Source: Tannerellaceae bacterium (GTDB lineage Bacteria > Bacteroidota > Bacteroidia > Bacteroidales > Tannerellaceae). Taken from it: a DNA stretch of 64,000 nucleotides. Every line of letters starts with the position of its first letter. Position 1 is the stretch's first letter. The stretch lies in NCBI GenBank assembly GCA_031257015.1, contig JAIRPK010000022.1:1-64000 (forward strand). The letters run 5' to 3'. The translations under genes were made by a program, and so were the position numbers. Of the stretch, positions 6,689-57,660 are shown piece by piece. Under the pieces are notes generated by a model that was given only the letters and a program-made list of their open reading frames with translations, had not been told where the DNA came from and searched no databases.

Positions 6689-8776
6689 ATGAAACAAATA
6701 TTTTTTATTCTTATGAGCTTAACATTCTTCAATGCCTGCAACAGCAAACAGGCCTACTCAAACACCGCCACGGCGGAAAACAACTCTTTAGACTACGTAG
6801 TTGACAAATTTGCAGACACGCAGGTTCTACGTTACAAGGTCCCCGGATTCGAAGATTTGTCGCTGCAGCAAAAACAATTGCTCTTCCACCTTTCCGAAGC
6901 CGCACTCATAGGCAGAGACATCCTTTACGACCAGAACTGCCGCTACAATCTCGCCATCAGGCGGATGCTCGAACAGATTTTCCTCGACAGCAAATGCGAC
7001 AGGAATGACCGGCAATTCAAGGAACTCGAAATCTACCTCAAGCGCGTCTGGTTCGCCAACGGCATCCATCACCATTACGCCGAGGACAAGTTCACTCCGG
7101 GTTTCTCACAGGACTTCCTCGCCGACAGGCTGCAGGAAATCGCCGGCAACACATCCGGAGAAGCATCTCTGACATTCCTGCGCAAGGGCCAGTCTCTACA
7201 ACAGTTTATCGACGAGATCTTCCCTGTGATTTTTTCGCCGGACGTCCTCGCCAAACGCACCGTACAAAGCGGAGATGGGGATATTATCCTTGCTTCCGCA
7301 AATAACTACTATGCGGGAGGAATCACCCAAAAGGAAGTAGAGGACTTTTATGAAAAACAGCGTCAACCCGACGACCTCACGCCGCCTTCCTACGGATTGA
7401 ACAGCCGACTTGTAAAGGAACCGGACGGACGAATAACCGAAAAGACATGGAAAATCGGAGGCCTATACTCCGATGCCATCGAAAAAATAGTCGAGCAACT
7501 CGAAAAAGCCCTCCCATTCGCCGAAAACCAGGCGCAAAAGGCTGTCATCGTCAAGCTTATCGCATTCTACCGGACAGGCGACCTGCGCACTTTCGACGCA
7601 TACGCCATTCTCTGGCTCAAAGACACCGCCTCAGAAATCGACTTTGTCAACGGATTCACAGAAACATACGGAGACCCACTCGGCATCAAGGCCAGCTGGG
7701 AATCAACCGTCAATTTCATTAACAAGGAAGCAACAAAGCGAACGAAAATCATCAGCGACAATGCACAATGGTTTGAAGACCACTCGCCAGTCGATCCCAG
7801 ATTCAAAAAAACAACCGTAAAAGGAATCAGCGCAAAAGTTATTACCGTCGTAATGCTGGGAGGAGACTGCTATCCATCGACGCCGATTGGAATAAACCTC
7901 CCCAATGCCGAATGGATTCGACGCGACCATGGCTCCAAATCCGTAACAATCGAAAACATAACGGAAGCATACGACCAGGCGGCGCTCGGCAACGGATTCA
8001 ACGACGAATTTGTACGCAGCGACGTCGAAAAAGAACTGATCGAAAAATATGGCTTCCTCGCCGACAATCTACATACGGACCTTCACGAGTGTCTGGGGCA
8101 CGGCTCAGGGCAAATTCTTCCGGGAATCTCGCCGGATACGCTCAAATCTTATGGCGCGACACTCGAAGAAGCAAGAGCTGACCTCTTCGGACTATACTAT
8201 ATCGCCGACCCGAAGCTTGTTGAACTCGGCGTCATGCCGGACAGCGAAGCTTTCAAGGCAGAGTACTACCGGTTTATGATGAACGGCCTTATCACCCAGC
8301 TCGTTCGCATCGAACCAGGGAAAGATATTGAAGAGGCTCACATGCGAAACCGTCAGCTCATCGCAAAATGGGTTTACGAAAAGGGCAAAACAAGCAACAT
8401 TCCTGTTGTCGAGCTGATAAAAAGCAATCAGAAAACCTATGTCAGGATTAACGACTATAACGCCCTGCGAAACCTCTTCGGAAAGCTTCTCGCCGAAGTA
8501 CAGCGAATCAAGAGCGAAGGAGACTACCAGGCAGGAAAAGCCCTCGTTGAGACTTATGGCGTCAAAGTCGATCAGGATATACACGCCGAAACGCTCGAAC
8601 GATACAGAAAGCTCAATCTTTCGCCATACAAGGGATTTGTTAACCCGACAATGAAACTCATCCGCAACGATAAGGGAGAAGCCGTCGATGTCACCCTCGA
8701 CTACTCCGAAAACTACACGCAACAAATGCTGAGATACAGCCGCGATTATTCATTTCTCCCAACTTACAATGAATGA
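6689..8776 (+). CDS. M49 (dipeptidyl-peptidase III family) zinc metallopeptidase lipoprotein
   Basis: The 695-residue protein begins with a lipoprotein signal; the lipobox FFNAC puts the modified Cys at about residue 17, so it is probably anchored in the envelope. The M49 zinc motif HEXXGH appears as HECLGH near residue 470, and the second motif EEARAD, carrying the third ligand, follows about 30 residues later. M49 enzymes remove dipeptides from peptide N-termini. Lipoprotein M49 members are common in Bacteroidales. Typical length, no missing active-site residue. No terminator is evident before array A. Confidence 0.92.
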   Translation: MKQIFFILMSLTFFNACNSKQAYSNTATAENNSLDYVVDKFADTQVLRYKVPGFEDLSLQQKQLLFHLSEAALIGRDILYDQNCRYNLAIRRMLEQIFLDSKCDRNDRQFKELEIYLKRVWFANGIHHHYAEDKFTPGFSQDFLADRLQEIAGNTSGEASLTFLRKGQSLQQFIDEIFPVIFSPDVLAKRTVQSGDGDIILASANNYYAGGITQKEVEDFYEKQRQPDDLTPPSYGLNSRLVKEPDGRITEKTWKIGGLYSDAIEKIVEQLEKALPFAENQAQKAVIVKLIAFYRTGDLRTFDAYAILWLKDTASEIDFVNGFTETYGDPLGIKASWESTVNFINKEATKRTKIISDNAQWFEDHSPVDPRFKKTTVKGISAKVITVVMLGGDCYPSTPIGINLPNAEWIRRDHGSKSVTIENITEAYDQAALGNGFNDEFVRSDVEKELIEKYGFLADNLHTDLHECLGHGSGQILPGISPDTLKSYGATLEEARADLFGLYYIADPKLVELGVMPDSEAFKAEYYRFMMNGLITQLVRIEPGKDIEEAHMRNRQLIAKWVYEKGKTSNIPVVELIKSNQKTYVRINDYNALRNLFGKLLAEVQRIKSEGDYQAGKALVETYGVKVDQDIHAETLERYRKLNLSPYKGFVNPTMKLIRNDKGEAVDVTLDYSENYTQQMLRYSRDYSFLPTYNE

Positions 8777-9089
8777 AACTGTTTGAACAGGAAATGAAAA
8801 CGGGGGAAAGGACAAACCATTACCGGACAGTCCGAAATATTATCGCGGAAATTACGGAAAACACATCTTTCGCCTTTTGCGACGCTGTTAATGCCGGTGT
8901 TTACAACTGTAAACCGGAGCCTCGCAGCAGGCGCACGGCGGCTAAAGAGACATTTTCGGCAACTTGCACTTGAGAATCGAATAATTAAGATATACATATA
9001 ATTATTTTTTGTGACCGGATACGGAATGAGCATAAACTTTCGACAGAATGACAGGATTAGCGTACAGATGTGCGCTATTCCCTGGACCT
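8777..9089. other. gene-free stretch before array A
   Basis: A 66-codon frame (8773-8973) overlaps the M49 stop as ATGA, but its translation resembles nothing I know and has no supporting signal. The rest is AT-rich. I see no RNA gene or strong terminator. Confidence 0.4.
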
Positions 9090-9518
9090 GTGACATATTT
9101 TCCGGCAGATTGAACATGTATTCCTGGCGATTGAACATGTATTTCTCACAATTGTACATGTATTCCCGGCAATTGAACATGTATTCCTGGCAATACAACA
9201 TGTATTCCTGCGGATTGAACATGTTTTCTTACGTATTGAACATGTTTTTTGAGCAATTTTACATGTTTTGTACTCACGAAATCATGCGAAATCGCGGGAA
9301 AAACATGTTGTATCGCCAGAAAAACATGTACAATCGCCAAGAAAACATGTACAATTGTGAGAAATACATGTACAATCGCCAGAAAAACATGTACAATCAT
9401 GAGGAAAACATGTACAATCGCCAGAAATACATGTACAATCACGAGAAAAACATGTTCAATTGCCGAAAAAACATGTTCAATCACAAGGAAAACATGTTTT
9501 TCTGTCCTGCATACATGA
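9090..9518. repeat. Array A: 21-bp tandem repeat with ACATGT core, inverted at its midpoint
   Basis: The palindromic hexamer ACATGT sits at 9114 and then every 21 bases exactly to 9492: 19 phased positions, 18 perfect. The exception, TCATGC at 9282, marks a change of orientation. Left units carry TTGA before the core and ATTCCTGGC after it; right units are the reverse complement (GAAAA before, ACAATCGCC after). Phase continues into decayed copies: ACATAT at 9093, ACATGA at 9513, GCATGT at 9597, ACATGA at 9639 and 9660, and AAATGT at 9723. The two arms could fold into a long imperfect hairpin. It lies between the M49 gene and fur. Function unknown. Confidence 0.95.
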
Positions 9519-9936
9519 CTGACAGCTGCGGAAACAGGCGTTCCGGCCGGGAGAAAATAAACACTCGCCCGTTGAAGAAATTGCATTGCCGCAGAAGCAT
9601 GTTTTCCGACCGGGGCACAGGGTTAGACTGTTTGCATGACATGATAAATTGGCAGCGCGACATGATTGCATGTCAAAAAGACCTGATGATTTGTCACGAC
9701 AGGAAGATGTCGCAGCCTCAAAAAATGTTAACAGTCCGGAAAAATAAGTTAATGTGTTCATGCGGAGGTTTTAACCTGCCGGAAAACAATAAAAAATCAC
9801 GATTCGCAAGTCTTAAATCCCAGACGGCGGCGTCTAATAATCAACGCTTTATGACAAATAACGCCGCAAAAAACGGAATCCGCTCATCCCACGTTTTTTT
9901 CTCTCATTTCCTGTTGAAAAGTTCATCTTTTATTGT

Positions 9937-9944
9937 TACCTTTG
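9937..9944 (+). promoter_or_regulatory. promoter for fur
   Basis: TACCTTTG matches TAnnTTTG, with TTG at 9914-9916 twenty bases upstream as a -33 element. It lies 20 bases before the ATG at 9965 and fixes that start for the Fur protein. Confidence 0.6.
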
Positions 9945-9964
9945 GGACATTAGTCTATAAGTCA

Positions 9965-10426
9965 ATGCAAGAAGATCATGAATTGCCGAAAAAGATAGAG
10001 AACCTCTATTTGGATTATCTAAAGGCAAATAACTTAAAAAGAACAAAAGAGCGGGATTTTATCTTAATAAGCCTTTGCAGAGAGAAAGGGCACACAGATG
10101 CCGAGGCTCTTTACAAAAAACTTTGCGATAATCCGCAATTTCGTGTCAGCAAGTCGGCTATTTACGATGCGTTGAACCTTTTCGTCAGCGCAGGAATAGC
10201 CAGCAAACATGTTAATAACAAAACGGCTGAATACGAACTGGCAGAAAACTCGAAAAAACATGTGCACCTTAAATGTATTCATTGCGGAAAAATCATAGAG
10301 GCGAGGGTTAACCCTACAATGTTTGAAAACAGCATAAATGCTGCAAAATATAACTTTTCGCCGTGCTATTTCTCCTTCTTTTCTTATGGAATATGCCATG
10401 AATGTGAAACAAAACAGAAAAAATAG
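9965..10426 (+). CDS. fur: Fur-family metal-responsive transcriptional regulator
   Basis: 153-residue DNA-binding repressor that senses Fe(II) or another metal. An N-terminal winged helix (about 15-85, including RTKERDFILISLCREKGH and SKSAIYDALNLF) is followed by a C-terminal dimer/metal domain with Cys pairs CIHCGK and CHEC, the usual structural zinc site. The reading frame stays open upstream to 9011 through array A, but the promoter at 9937-9944 and normal family length place the start at 9965. purA begins 27 bases after the stop. The pairing with purA is known in Bacteroidales. Fur, Zur and PerR cannot be separated with certainty. Confidence 0.9.
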   Translation: MQEDHELPKKIENLYLDYLKANNLKRTKERDFILISLCREKGHTDAEALYKKLCDNPQFRVSKSAIYDALNLFVSAGIASKHVNNKTAEYELAENSKKHVHLKCIHCGKIIEARVNPTMFENSINAAKYNFSPCYFSFFSYGICHECETKQKK

Positions 10427-10453
10427 ATTAAAATCAGATATATTATGCTGTAT

Positions 10454-11743
10454 ATGAAAGTTGATGTGATATTAGGTCTCCAGTGGGGGGACGAAGGGAA
10501 AGGGAAAATCGTCGATGTTCTCGCTCCCGATTATGATGCGGTAGCGCGTTTCCAGGGCGGCCCCAATGCGGGGCATACTTTGGAGATTGAAGACCGGAAA
10601 TATGTCCTGAGGTCGATTCCTTCCGGCATCTTGCAGGAGGATACGTACAACATTATCGGCAGCGGCGTCGTTATCGACCCGCTATTGTTCAAGGAAGAAG
10701 CCGAAGCGTTGATGAACGACTGTACGGATATGACAAACCGGTTGTTCATCTCAAAGAAGGCGCACTTGATTCTCCCGACGCATCGTCTTCTCGACGCGGC
10801 TTACGAATCGGCCAAAAAGACCGGACGCATCGGAACAACCGGAAAGGGCATAGGCCCGGCCTACGGAGATAAAATCGGACGGTGCGGCCTGCGAGTCGGC
10901 GATACGCTGGAACCGGATTTCCACGAGAGATACGAGGCGGCAAAGCTTCGCCACATCGAAATCCTTAAATCTCTCGGACAGGATTGCGACATCGCCGAAC
11001 TGGAAAAGAAATGGATGGAGGGAATCGCTTATCTCCAGAAGTTCAGCCTTGTGGACAGCGAGTATGTCATTAACGACTATCTGGCAGACTGTTACTCGGT
11101 GCTCGCGGAAGGTGCGCAGGGGACGATGCTTGATGTGGATTTCGGATCTTACCCCTTCGTTACCTCGTCGAACACGATGTGCGGCGGATGTTGCACGGGT
11201 TTGGGCATCTCGCCGCGGAGCATCGGTGAGGTTTACGGCGTTTTCAAGGCCTATTGCACGAGAGTGGGCGCCGGTCCTTTTCCTACGGAGCTTCACGACG
11301 AGACGGGCGAGACGCTGTGCCGGCTGGGGAATGAATATGGTTCGGTGACGGGGCGCAAACGCCGTTGCGGATGGATCGACCTCGTTGCGCTTCGTTACGC
11401 CATCATGATTAATGGGGTAACTTGCCTTGTTATGACCAAGAGCGACGTTTTGGATACGTTCGACACAATAAAGGTTTGTGTGGCTTACAAGAGAGGAGAC
11501 GAAACTTTTGAGCGTTTGCCTTACAGTATTGACGAAAGTTATGAACCGGTTTATACAGAGATTCCCGGTTGGAAGACGGATATGTCAGGAATGGAGAAAG
11601 AGGATGAATTTCCAGAGGAATTTAACGCTTATCTCGACTTTTTGGAGAATGAATTGGAGACGCCCATATATATTGTCTCTGTCGGGCCGAACCGCGCACA
11701 GACTATTCGGCGATATGATGAAGAGGAGGATGAATGTTCCTGA
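10454..11743 (+). CDS. purA: adenylosuccinate synthetase
   Basis: Joins IMP and aspartate using GTP to make adenylosuccinate, the first AMP-specific step of purine synthesis. The 429-residue frame starts MKVDVILGLQWGDEGKGK, containing the P-loop-like GDEGKGK; QGGPNAGHTLE, GTTGKGIGPAY, AEGAQGTMLDVDFG and VTGRKRRCGWID are all conserved blocks. An ATG three codons earlier (10445) is possible, but family members usually begin at MKVD. It sits directly after fur and is probably co-transcribed. The acidic end (EEEDE) is unremarkable. Confidence 0.97.
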   Translation: MKVDVILGLQWGDEGKGKIVDVLAPDYDAVARFQGGPNAGHTLEIEDRKYVLRSIPSGILQEDTYNIIGSGVVIDPLLFKEEAEALMNDCTDMTNRLFISKKAHLILPTHRLLDAAYESAKKTGRIGTTGKGIGPAYGDKIGRCGLRVGDTLEPDFHERYEAAKLRHIEILKSLGQDCDIAELEKKWMEGIAYLQKFSLVDSEYVINDYLADCYSVLAEGAQGTMLDVDFGSYPFVTSSNTMCGGCCTGLGISPRSIGEVYGVFKAYCTRVGAGPFPTELHDETGETLCRLGNEYGSVTGRKRRCGWIDLVALRYAIMINGVTCLVMTKSDVLDTFDTIKVCVAYKRGDETFERLPYSIDESYEPVYTEIPGWKTDMSGMEKEDEFPEEFNAYLDFLENELETPIYIVSVGPNRAQTIRRYDEEEDECS

Positions 11744-15703: not shown

Positions 15704-15846
15704 CGTTTGGCTCCTGATTTAAAATACCATGTGTACGGTATTTCAATCACGCCCTCTTATGAGGCGGCGACTTCGCAGGAAGGCTTCCAGTCCGTTTGTT
15801 TCAGCATCCGTGTCTTGTCATTTTCAAATGGTCTTTCATCATTAAT

Positions 15847-16060
15847 GTTAGTGGGATGTCATCACTAGCGTTAGTGGGATGTCGTCACTAATGTTAGTGA
15901 GATGTCGTCACTAGCGTTAGTGGGATGTCGTCACTAATGTTAGTGAGATGTCGTCACTAGCGTTAGTGGGATGTCATCACTAGCGTTAGTGGGATGTCGT
16001 CACTAATGTTAGTGGGATGTCATCACTAGTGTTAGTGGGGTGTCGTCACCAGTGTTAGTG
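15847..16060. repeat. Array B: 23-bp tandem repeat with TTAGTG/CACTAA dyads
   Basis: GTTAGTG recurs at 15847 and every 23 bases exactly to 16054, giving nine full units and a partial tenth; a decayed half unit (TCATCATTAAT) precedes it. Each unit contains TTAGTG and CACTA(A/G) as inverted arms with a nine-base spacer; adjacent units also form the near-perfect palindrome CACTAATGTTAGTG. Variation is concentrated at a few positions (GGG/GAG, CAT/CGT, AGC/AAT). It lies between the tRNA-CAU terminator and the promoter of the LuxR-type gene. Period 23 is not a multiple of three, so coding is ruled out. Confidence 0.95.
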
Positions 16061-16089
16061 GCGCTCGGAAGCATATGTGGATGTCTCGT

Positions 16090-18359: not shown

Positions 18360-18712
18360 CATTCTCCGAGAATCACGCGAGATTCTCCGAGAATCAAACG
18401 AGACTCTCTGAGAATCAAACGAGACTCTCTGAGAATCAAACGGGACTCTCCGAGAATCACGCGGGACTCTCGGAGAATCACGCGAGACTCTCCGAGAATC
18501 AAACGAGACTCTCCGAGAATCAAACGGGACTCTCGGAGAATCACGCGAGACTCTCCGAGAATCACCATGATATTCTCCGAGAATCAAACGAGACTCTCGG
18601 AGAGTCACCACTATATTCTCCGAGAATCACGCGAGACTCTCTGAGAATCACGCGACATTCTCTGAGAATCAAACGAGACTCTCCGAGAATCACGCGAGAC
18701 TCTCGGAGACAA
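18360..18712. repeat. Array C: 21-bp tandem repeat with GATTCTCNGAGAATC-type palindromes
   Basis: Seventeen CTCNGAG cores run from 18364 to 18702; 14 of 16 intervals are 21 bases and two are 22. The full palindrome is about 15 bp. Perfect versions include GATTCTCCGAGAATC at 18381 and GACTCTCGGAGAGTC at 18592. The spacer is six bases, mostly AAACGA, ACGCGA, AAACGG or ACGCGG. The centre base N is C, G or T. It lies between the long LptF/LptG gene and ribBA. Array D at 27 kb is the same family in reverse orientation. Heptapeptide-repeat frames through it (such as 18326-18766) are artefacts of a period divisible by three. Confidence 0.95.
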
Positions 18713-27166: not shown

Positions 27167-27728
27167 ACAGCTCCGAGCATCAAATGAGATGCTCCGAGCG
27201 TCTCGTTTGACACTCCGAGTGTCTTGTTTGACACTCCGAGTGTCTCGTTTGACACTCCGAGCGTCTCGTTTGACACTCCGAGTGTTTCGTTTGATGCTCG
27301 GAGCGTCTCGCGTGACACTCGGAGCGTCTCGTTTGATGCTCGGAGCGTCTCGCGTGACACTTGGAGCGTCTCGTTTGACACTTGGAGCGTCTCGTTTGAC
27401 ACTCGGAGTGTCTCGTTTGACACTCGGAGCGTCTCGCTTGATGCTCGGCGCGTCTCGTTTGATGCTTGGCGCGTCTCGTTTGATGCTTGGAGAATCACCG
27501 TTGATACTCGGAGAATCACGCTTGATACTCTGAGAGTCTCGCGTGATTCTCGGAGAGTCACCGTTGATTCTCTGAGAGTGTCTGGTTGATACTCGGAGAA
27601 TCACCGTTGATTCTCGGAGAGTCTCGCGTGATACTCTGAGAATCACCGTTGATTCTCGGAGAGTCTCGCGTGACACTCGGAGAATCACCGTTGACTCTCT
27701 GAGAGTGTCGCGTGATACTCGGAGAATC
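27167..27728. repeat. Array D: 21-bp tandem repeat, reverse-oriented relative of array C
   Basis: Twenty-seven cores of CTCNGAG type run from 27171 to 27718; 25 of 26 intervals are exactly 21 bases, one is 22. Cores drift along the array: CTCCGAG in the first six, CTCGGAG or CTTGGAG in the middle, CTCGGCG/CTTGGCG at 27444-27465, then CTCGGAG and CTCTGAG. Palindromes include GACACTCCGAGTGTC at 27209-27223. Spacers TCGTTT and TCGCGT are the reverse complements of array C spacers AAACGA and ACGCGA. It fills the gap between two converging genes. No coding function is supported. Confidence 0.95.
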
Positions 27729-27846
27729 ACGCTTCAATCCTTAAGAATGTTTTGAGACCTTCGGAAAATGTTGCAATATCTTCGGAACTAAAAGCAAAAA
27801 ACTCGCAAGACGCTTGTCCGCGAGTTTTGCATACGGCAATGGATAT

Positions 27847-38662: not shown

Positions 38663-39262
38663 CCAGTATGAGGGAAATGCTCCCGAAAATTTCTGGAGGT
38701 TTTCCCCGCGAAGGAAATGCTTCAAAAAAAAATATTGAGATTTTCCCCCTTGAGGGAAAGTGTGCTGAAAATTTCTAGAGGCTTTCCCCGCGAAGGAAAT
38801 GCTTCAAAAAAAAATATTTAGATTTTCCCCCTTGATGGAAAGTGTGCTGAAAATTTCTGGAGGCTTTCCCCGCGAAGGGAATGCTTCAAAAAAAAATTAT
38901 TTAGTTTTTCCCCCTTGAGGGAAAGTGTGCTGAAAATTTCTGGAGGTTTTCCCCGCGAAGGGAATGCTTCAAAAAAACTTCATTTAGATTTTCCCCCTTG
39001 AGGGAAAGTGTGCTGAAAATTTCTGGGAGCTTTCCCCGCGAAGGGAATGCTTCAAAAAAAAATATTGAGTTTTTCCCCCTTGAGGGAAAGTGTGCTGAAA
39101 ATTTCTGGAGGCTTTCCCCGCGAAGGGAATGTGTCAAAAAAAAAATATTTAGTTTTTCCCCCTTGAGGGAAATGCACCTGAAAATTTCGGGAAGCGTTCC
39201 CCCATGGGGGAAAGGCTCAATATTTTTTCAGGAGGGTTTCCACCTTTGGGGAAAGTGTCAGG
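38663..39262. repeat. Array E: 82-83-bp composite repeat, two alternating hairpins 41-42 bp apart
   Basis: Fourteen C-run hairpin cores are spaced 41 or 42 bases (C-runs start at 38704, 38745, 38786, 38827, 38868, 38910, 38951, 38993, 39034, 39075, 39116, 39158, 39199 and 39240). Two kinds alternate: TTCCC-CGCGAA-GGGAA and TTTCCC-CCTTGA-GGGAAA, each with a six-base loop. They are linked by A-run segments (CTTCAAAAAAAAATATT) or by GTGTGCTGAAAATTTCTGG. The last two copies are decayed. It lies between frr and the 3' end of the HhH/barrel gene. The period is close to four helical turns or two 21-bp steps. Confidence 0.93.
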
Positions 39263-46532: not shown

Positions 46533-46859
46533 TCTTTCTAATCGCGTGCCGGCTTCAATTTTTACAGTTTTTCCTTGAAGCAAAAGGTTCGCGTTTTTTT
46601 TATGTCTTATTTTTCGCCATATTCTCTTTTATCTATAAAAATGCTGGCTCGGAGCTTGGGATCTCGTCAAACAATATTTACAGTCGGTGTCCCTAAATAT
46701 AATTTTAGAATTATAACCAATCCATGGCATCACAAATATTAAGACGCGGAATAAGCGATGCGAATTTTTGATATAAATAATAAAGTTATTGCCAGCCAGG
46801 CCATTAATTTTTCATTCAACAGTTTACCGATTGATTTTCTGAAATAACTCTACGGCACT
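46533..46859. other. gene-free stretch between lepA and array F
   Basis: AT-rich, no supported ORF and no strong hairpin. It forms the 3' flank of lepA. Confidence 0.4.
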
Positions 46860-46945
46860 TTCCACACCGATGCGCGAACTTCCGTCACCGGTGCGCGAAC
46901 TTCCGTCACCGGTGCGCAGACTTTCCGCACCGGTGCGGAAATCTT
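46860..46945. repeat. Array F: short 21-bp tandem repeat with CACCGGTG core
   Basis: Four cores lie 21 bases apart: CACCGATG at 46865, then CACCGGTG at 46886, 46907 and 46928. The last extends to a perfect 20-bp palindrome TTTCCGCACCGGTGCGGAAA (46922-46941). The others are near-palindromes with TTCCG before the core and CGCGAA or CGCAGA after it. GC-rich within AT-rich surroundings. It lies between the converging lepA and queF genes. This is the smallest array. Confidence 0.9.
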
Positions 46946-57375: not shown

Positions 57376-57660
57376 ATGGGTCCTCGAATGAGTTGCATAG
57401 GTACTCAAATGATTCATACGGGCACTCGAACAAGCAGAACGGGTACTCAAATGAGTCGGAGGGGTACTCGAATGAATTGTACGGGTACTAAAATAAACCA
57501 GACGGGTACTCGAACAATTTATATGGGTACTCAAATAAATTGGACGAGTACTCGAATGAATTAAACGAGTACTAAAATGAATCGGATGAGTACCCGTTTA
57601 AATCGAACGAGTACTCGAATAAGTTAAATTAGTACTAATCCAAGCTCTTCTAATACTGGA
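57376..57660. repeat. Array G: 21-bp tandem repeat with GAGTACTC/GGGTACTC core, inside the dcw cluster
   Basis: Thirteen GTAC-type cores lie exactly 21 bases apart from 57380 to 57632 (first GTCC, third GCAC, the rest GTAC), with a decayed ATAC at 57653. Palindromes of 8-12 bp surround the core, such as CGAGTACTCG at 57545 and 57608 and ATTAGTACTAAT at 57628. The core shifts along the array from GGGTACTC to GAGTACTC. It separates murD from ftsW, genes that normally sit end to end. Confidence 0.95.

Follow-up and report, generated by a model that had tools for sequence, protein, structure and literature searches.

With a probability of roughly 0.5, the intergenic array analyzed here belongs to a dispersed minisatellite of the foldback type, present in four copies, whose core and pitch are constrained at the DNA level. 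It is located in a window of 64,000 nucleotides (the whole stretch of DNA that was analyzed) from an uncultured Tannerellaceae bacterium, contig JAIRPK010000022.1. The element consists of two mutually inverted arms, each built of about 5-11 21-bp units, around a centre of roughly 36-57 bp that contains one or two degenerate cores, and all parts share one lattice. The presence of four such blocks, in a genome rich in two-turn repeat arrays, suggests that the block is a DNA element that spreads and not an RNA structure of local significance.

Positional analysis of the window placed ACATGT cores on a 21-bp grid at 9114+21k, for k=0-7 and k=9-18, exactly where the sequence-only reading had located them. 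The k=8 core (TCATGC, 9282-9287) is the sole broken core among k=0-18, and the single orientation flip of the array occurs at this unit. The left arm (9114-9266, minus strand) carries eight cores (k=0-7) at exact 21-bp pitch with ATTCCTGGCGATTGA-like spacers, and the right arm (9303-9497, plus strand) carries ten cores (k=9-18) with ACAATCGCCAGAAAA-like spacers, each spacer type being the reverse complement of the other. Between them the centre (9267-9302, no strand assigned) consists of two spacers around the degenerate core and leaves the lattice unbroken. A minus-strand DNA match of 9093-9269 to the right arm showed 77 % identity. Eight left and ten right units had been proposed to be reverse complements of each other. 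The opposed spacer types were confirmed, but the clean arms comprise just 7 and 9 spacers, because the spacers following k=7 and k=18 match neither type well. The consensus unit of the array family is ACATGTTTTTCTGGCGATTGA.

Weak in-phase cores reported at 9093 (ACATAT), 9513 (ACATGA), 9597 (GCATGT), 9639 and 9660 (both ACATGA) and 9723 (AAATGT) are all present. Retention of phase through the flip and into the decayed flank, as had been claimed, was borne out: the 12 decayed units of the right flank (k=19-30; 9498-9764, plus strand) gave 47 of 72 core matches in phase 0, compared to 32 for the best other phase, a score reached by 0 of 5000 dinucleotide shuffles (p<2e-4). The spacers of this flank scored 6.0/15 against a null of 4.05. 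A weaker phase signal was found in the left flank (k=-4 to -1; p=0.003), which includes the decayed unit k=-1 (9093-9113, no strand assigned), and past k=30 the phase test of the window found no signal. Core and flank conservation were expected to differ in case of selection on the cores. Window cores were invariant (identity 1.00), whereas spacer identity was 0.62 in the left and 0.71 in the right arm, with a column permutation p of about 0.003 for a core that was picked post hoc. Cores were likewise better conserved than spacers in the ACATGT arrays of contigs C33, C21, C25 and C45, and the difference fell short of significance in the C35 array (p 0.14). Most ACATGT arrays combine a core identity of 1.00 with spacer identities of 0.58-0.75.

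The array sits in the gap between a gene of peptidase family M49 (6689-8776, plus strand; PF03571, E=3e-49) and a fur family regulator gene (9968-10426, plus strand, start near 9964-9968; PF01475, E=1e-16), which is followed by purA, encoding adenylosuccinate synthetase (10445-11743, plus strand; PF00709). A pattern scan revealed a match to the Bacteroidales-type promoter TTG-N20-TAnnTTTG before fur (9914-9944, plus strand), a pattern with 5 matches in the window against 1.05 expected; fur thus has a predicted promoter of its own, downstream of the array. The M49-fur gap measures 1192 bp here and 35-69 bp in three genomes of the same genus. Comparison with relatives shows that M49-(alkD)-fur-purA is the ancestral gene order, alkD having been lost here; the Fur proteins of the nearest relatives are 39 % identical. 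The array as a remnant of the lost alkD gene was rejected, as tblastn gave no match in the gap better than E=0.5. An imperfect 25-bp inverted repeat (88 %; 8773-8797 and 9904-9926) bounds the entire gap and possibly represents insertion ends, a weak candidate that has no counterpart at the other copies. In a closely knit trio among the relatives (L066, L067, L069) a 22-bp array of CATTATAATG dyads is found upstream of alkD-fur. This array also flips in phase, and it is absent from G017, a near relative of the trio.

A DNA search of the entire genome revealed three further copies of the element, C33:6379-6800, C37:94088-94491 and C47:109729-110050. All four copies begin with left-type units, change orientation precisely at a point marked by one or two degenerate cores, and continue with right-type units on a single unbroken 21-bp lattice; the degenerate flip cores outside the window are CCATGA (C33), ACCTGC (C37) and GCATGT/AACGGT (C47). 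Since the four copies share this two-armed design with a degenerate centre, the flip is inherited family architecture and not a local accident. Homology between the centres is weak (19-23 of 36 positions), and the 600-bp flanks of the copies share just short matches at chance level. The location at unrelated sites without common flanks argues that the two-armed block dispersed as a unit, which is favoured over the alternative that dispersed seeds grew again into the same design. The array ends are decayed, and neither a mobilising enzyme nor a terminal inverted repeat, a target duplication or an empty site could be identified for the four-copy element. The assembly consists of 73 contigs without a close relative, and the numbers of repeat units may be off if it was built from short reads. 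The C47 copy is placed between two divergent genes, of which the left one reads like nqrA, as judged by eye. The C33 copy (L045:6290-6880) lies within an open frame; this frame overlaps the upstream gene's stop and terminates 20 bp short of the next gene.

Across the four copies none of the 63 units is off the lattice and no indel occurs, against 255 spacer substitutions from the consensus, a number that overstates independent events because the units share ancestry. The lack of shifted units while the spacers vary freely supports a constraint on both the dyad core and the two-turn pitch that acts on double-stranded DNA. Retained phase had been taken to imply either selection on core spacing or an old array dying from one side. 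The counts above support a constraint on core spacing, and the long decayed right flank would fit an array that dies from one side. Shared descent of the units followed by homogenisation could also purge length variants without selection. The two-armed block would have spread by a MITE-like or recombination route, with units gained or lost in whole 21-bp steps via slippage or unequal exchange. Exchange between arms or strands would likewise preserve the lattice, given that the core is palindromic. The constraint would most likely be exerted by a dimeric DNA-binding protein that reads the phased cores, or through the curved DNA path of the lattice. A wedge model predicted strong curvature for all four copies, with a predicted bend across the flip that is maximal at the native spacing or within 1 bp of it. 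Curvature is possibly a selected trait of the four-copy family. It may also be a by-product of the period, because a predicted curvature of z>3 was obtained for 18 of 40 random 21-bp units, compared to 26 of 43 real arrays.

The foldback (FB) transposons of eukaryotes have long inverted arms, composed of short tandem subrepeats, on either side of a centre. The window family resembles these in arm structure, but differs in being bacterial and in its exact helical lattice, and no transposase, terminal structure or target duplication was found for it. BrickBuilt, a minisatellite-bearing MITE of Porphyromonas gingivalis, is the nearest described relative of the four-copy element (PMC4596501). BrickBuilt has tandem 23-nt units without spacers, in most cases a leader and a tail whose ends are small inverted repeats, and, in the part of the description consulted, direct repeats only (PMC4596501). 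Both occur in Bacteroidales between genes, as tandem units of about two turns, with copy number varying among dispersed copies. The unit lengths are 2 nt apart (23 nt against 21 bp), and no leader, tail or terminal repeats were found in the window family, whose copies share no flanks and have arms inverted to each other on a single lattice. An element in the related genus represented by G030, with conserved leader and tail, is closer to BrickBuilt than the window family is. REP units are hairpins of 20-40 bp with GTAG or CGTC tags that are found mostly downstream of genes and are linked to RAYT transposases (PMC3733652). Dispersed intergenic palindromic units, frequently in opposite orientations, are common to REP/BIME sequences (PMC3733652) and the window family, but what is conserved in the latter is a 6-bp core placed on a 21-bp lattice. 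A REP/BIME system with RAYT was rejected, since the consensus unit lacks a GTAG/CGTC tag and no match to PF01797 (Y1, RAYT-type transposase) was found in the 93 % complete assembly. A CRISPR array was rejected as well, the spacers being variants of one sequence.

In a tentative alternative, a dimeric chromosomal protein would bind ACATGT as its symmetric site, and spread would be secondary. Two-turn spacing would put the dimers on one side of the DNA, to polymerise or to bend it, and the orientation of the spacers would be irrelevant because the site is a palindrome. The invariant dyad core, exact pitch and divergent spacers agree with such binding, as do the predicted flip bends that peak within 1 bp of native spacing in the four copies, and the independent variation of flanking bases in F2. 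Further support comes from relatives: the 16-bp dyad TTAGASGTACSTCTAA, repeated there at a pitch of 22 bp, is conserved between genera, with variable 6-bp linkers. Exact TTAGASGTACSTCTAA sites number 322 in G030, 31 in G007 (a member of the window's genus) and 6 in G026, compared to 0 in each of these genomes for a reversed-letter control. The TTAGASGTACSTCTAA element mostly consists of four 22-bp units and is dispersed over many sites (L292-L306 in G030, L307-L311 in G007); the G030 copies carry the conserved leader and tail. Forward and reverse forms coexist in one array with the 22-bp lattice intact. As these 22-bp elements also flip on the lattice, in-phase change of orientation is a repeated design rule and not a local peculiarity. 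Against a functional binding site, however, one genome harbours at least 10 unrelated cores, related species differ in whether a given locus carries an array, there is no candidate protein, and curvature comes free with a 21-bp repeat, as the random units showed.

Stretches totalling 609 kb, about 20 % of the genome, were read; arrays beyond these were counted by pattern, and gene calls were crude. The sampled 609 kb harbour about 13 intergenic tandem arrays per 100 kb, occupying 3.3 % of bases, and stretches not selected for arrays (473 kb) gave 12.9 per 100 kb. Among 61 arrays with a period of at least 10, the period is 21 bp in 33 and falls at 21-23, 41-43 or 63 in 55. Taken genome-wide, units in arrays with at least 5 copies measure 21 bp in 457 cases, 22 bp in 32, 23 bp in 23 and 24 bp in one, and two apparent 20-bp lengths arise from the choice of motif at 9290. 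An exact 21 bp is therefore not obligatory, because other arrays here tolerate 22-bp and 23-bp units. The cores differ between arrays, e.g. ACATGT, CTCSGAG, CACCGGTG, GAGCTAGCTC, ATACGTAT and CACTAGTG. Dyad symmetry is over-represented, with a palindrome of at least 8 in 24 of 34 consensus units against 15 % expected, a count in which arrays within one family are not independent. Some arrays are two joined sub-arrays that stay near one lattice. Arrays occur in tandem, convergent and divergent gene gaps, the divergent ones hosting 12 of 38 arrays according to the crude gene calls.

Similar periods were found in relatives of the same family (32 genomes, about 0.9 Mb sampled), where 34 of 42 arrays have a period of 21-23 or 41-42, 22 being the most frequent. 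ACATGT arrays were found in none of 60 relatives, and ACATGT trios are rare, occurring in 9 genomes of 395 evenly drawn Bacteroidota. When named genomes were scanned for four ACATGT cores spaced at 21 bp, at least 80 loci were obtained (L081-L160). Among the 80 matches listed, 38 are JAIR/JAIS/JAIT records from several phyla, probably termite-gut MAGs, and almost every genome has spacers of its own. After masking of the seed arrays, the loci listed again showed a period peak at 21 bp (12 of 34).

Intergenic repeats in bacteria are commonly regarded as hairpin RNAs, as debris of transposons or as VNTR markers. The arrays described here have period and phase in common, but not sequence: their dyad cores, found in several genera, are numerous and unrelated, and almost all of them recur at 21-23 or 41-43 bp. 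This raises the testable question whether something reads helical phase along intergenic DNA, or whether a copying process favours two-turn units. Each of these outcomes would account for a genome-wide property of this group that, judging from the searchable literature, seems not to have been described; no direct description of two-turn or 21-bp intergenic arrays in Bacteroidetes was found there. Rather speculatively, the chromosomes of the family might carry hundreds of intergenic arrays with dyad cores at two or four helical turns, read by one or more DNA-binding proteins as a phased scaffold. Core families would spread and replace each other while the lattice is kept, amounting to a bacterial satellite system for chromosome architecture.

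A neutral satellite, maintained by slippage and unequal exchange alone, is unlikely. The 21-bp unit would then be a mechanistic preference and the core a trace of recent descent or an exchange site. Arrays are indeed labile between close species and intergenic in every context, and turnover within the genus, together with the 0 of 60 relatives that carry ACATGT arrays, fits such a process. Drift of this kind is hard to reconcile with cores that stay intact despite 25-40 % spacer divergence, with the lack of any indel beside 255 substitutions in the four copies, with an identical two-armed design at four loci and with lengths that cluster at 21-23 in many genomes.

It is highly improbable that the array acts as an RNA element, in which the two arms would pair within a transcript to form a hairpin of about 400 nt, with a role in terminating, stabilising or insulating transcripts between M49 and fur. 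Such a hairpin had been proposed, and strong folding was indeed predicted for the window copy (-175 kcal/mol against -87 +/- 5 for shuffles; z -17), as well as for the C33 copy (-192, z -22). A function in 3' UTR RNA is nevertheless unsupported, because A-C outnumber G-U pairs, the C47 copy lies between divergent genes, as do the 12 of 38 arrays in the crude calls, and arrays occur in all intergenic contexts. In the best inverted registers of two arrays, G-U against A-C counts on the plus strand were 3 against 8 and 10 against 19; with G-U not enriched, a plus-strand hairpin under selection was rejected. A hairpin of the single unit was rejected too, the flanking bases not covarying because those of F2 vary independently. 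An intrinsic terminator found no support, with 0 sites in 8700-10000 and array contexts that include divergent gene pairs, and no Rfam family reached its threshold, the sub-threshold matches being miRNA hairpin models. The predicted fur promoter beyond the array also argues against an RNA role.

A coding repeat is equally improbable. Units of 21 bp would equal seven codons and specify a heptad-repeat peptide, as in palindromic repeat-coding elements (PARCELs), which encode a conserved amphipathic protein repeat of 25 residues and are likewise dyad-symmetric tandem repeats with a patchy distribution across phyla (PMC2996958). An open frame (9011-10426) traverses the window array into fur, open frames also exist at C47 (into the downstream gene) and at C33 (overlapping the upstream stop), the fur-frame stretch 9498-9967 is stop-free (P=0.001), and one of six frames shows a synonymous excess (P=0.016). 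This excess, however, fails in the other arm and is not significant after six tests, and arrays of 22 and 41 bp are common elsewhere in this genome and in relatives. Both a coding function and a PARCEL were rejected, as substitutions in the fur frame are not synonymous beyond expectation and the open frame differs from copy to copy.

Several other arrays were observed in the window. A 23-bp array with a CACTAGTG-type dyad (15839-16061; 9.7 copies) adjoins a tRNA-Met gene, and 23-bp arrays of the same type occur in C33 (L283:316 and 5730). The CTCSGAG dyad arrays at 18363-18709 and 27188-27734 consist mainly of 21-bp units with a few of 22 bp and none of 20 bp; the array at 27188 is a composite, and the same two sub-arrays are found together at L048, L053 and L055. 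The genes murD and ftsW are usually neighbours in one operon; here a 21-bp GGTACTC array (57378-57622) lies between them. A short 21-bp array with a CACCGGTG core is located at 46857-46937. L058 and L047 also have the CACCGGTG core with a period of 21 bp, and G001, a genome of the same genus, has it with one of 23 bp (L072:12395-12807). An array of a different kind, with an 83-bp repeat in 6.5 copies, is present at 38669-39202.
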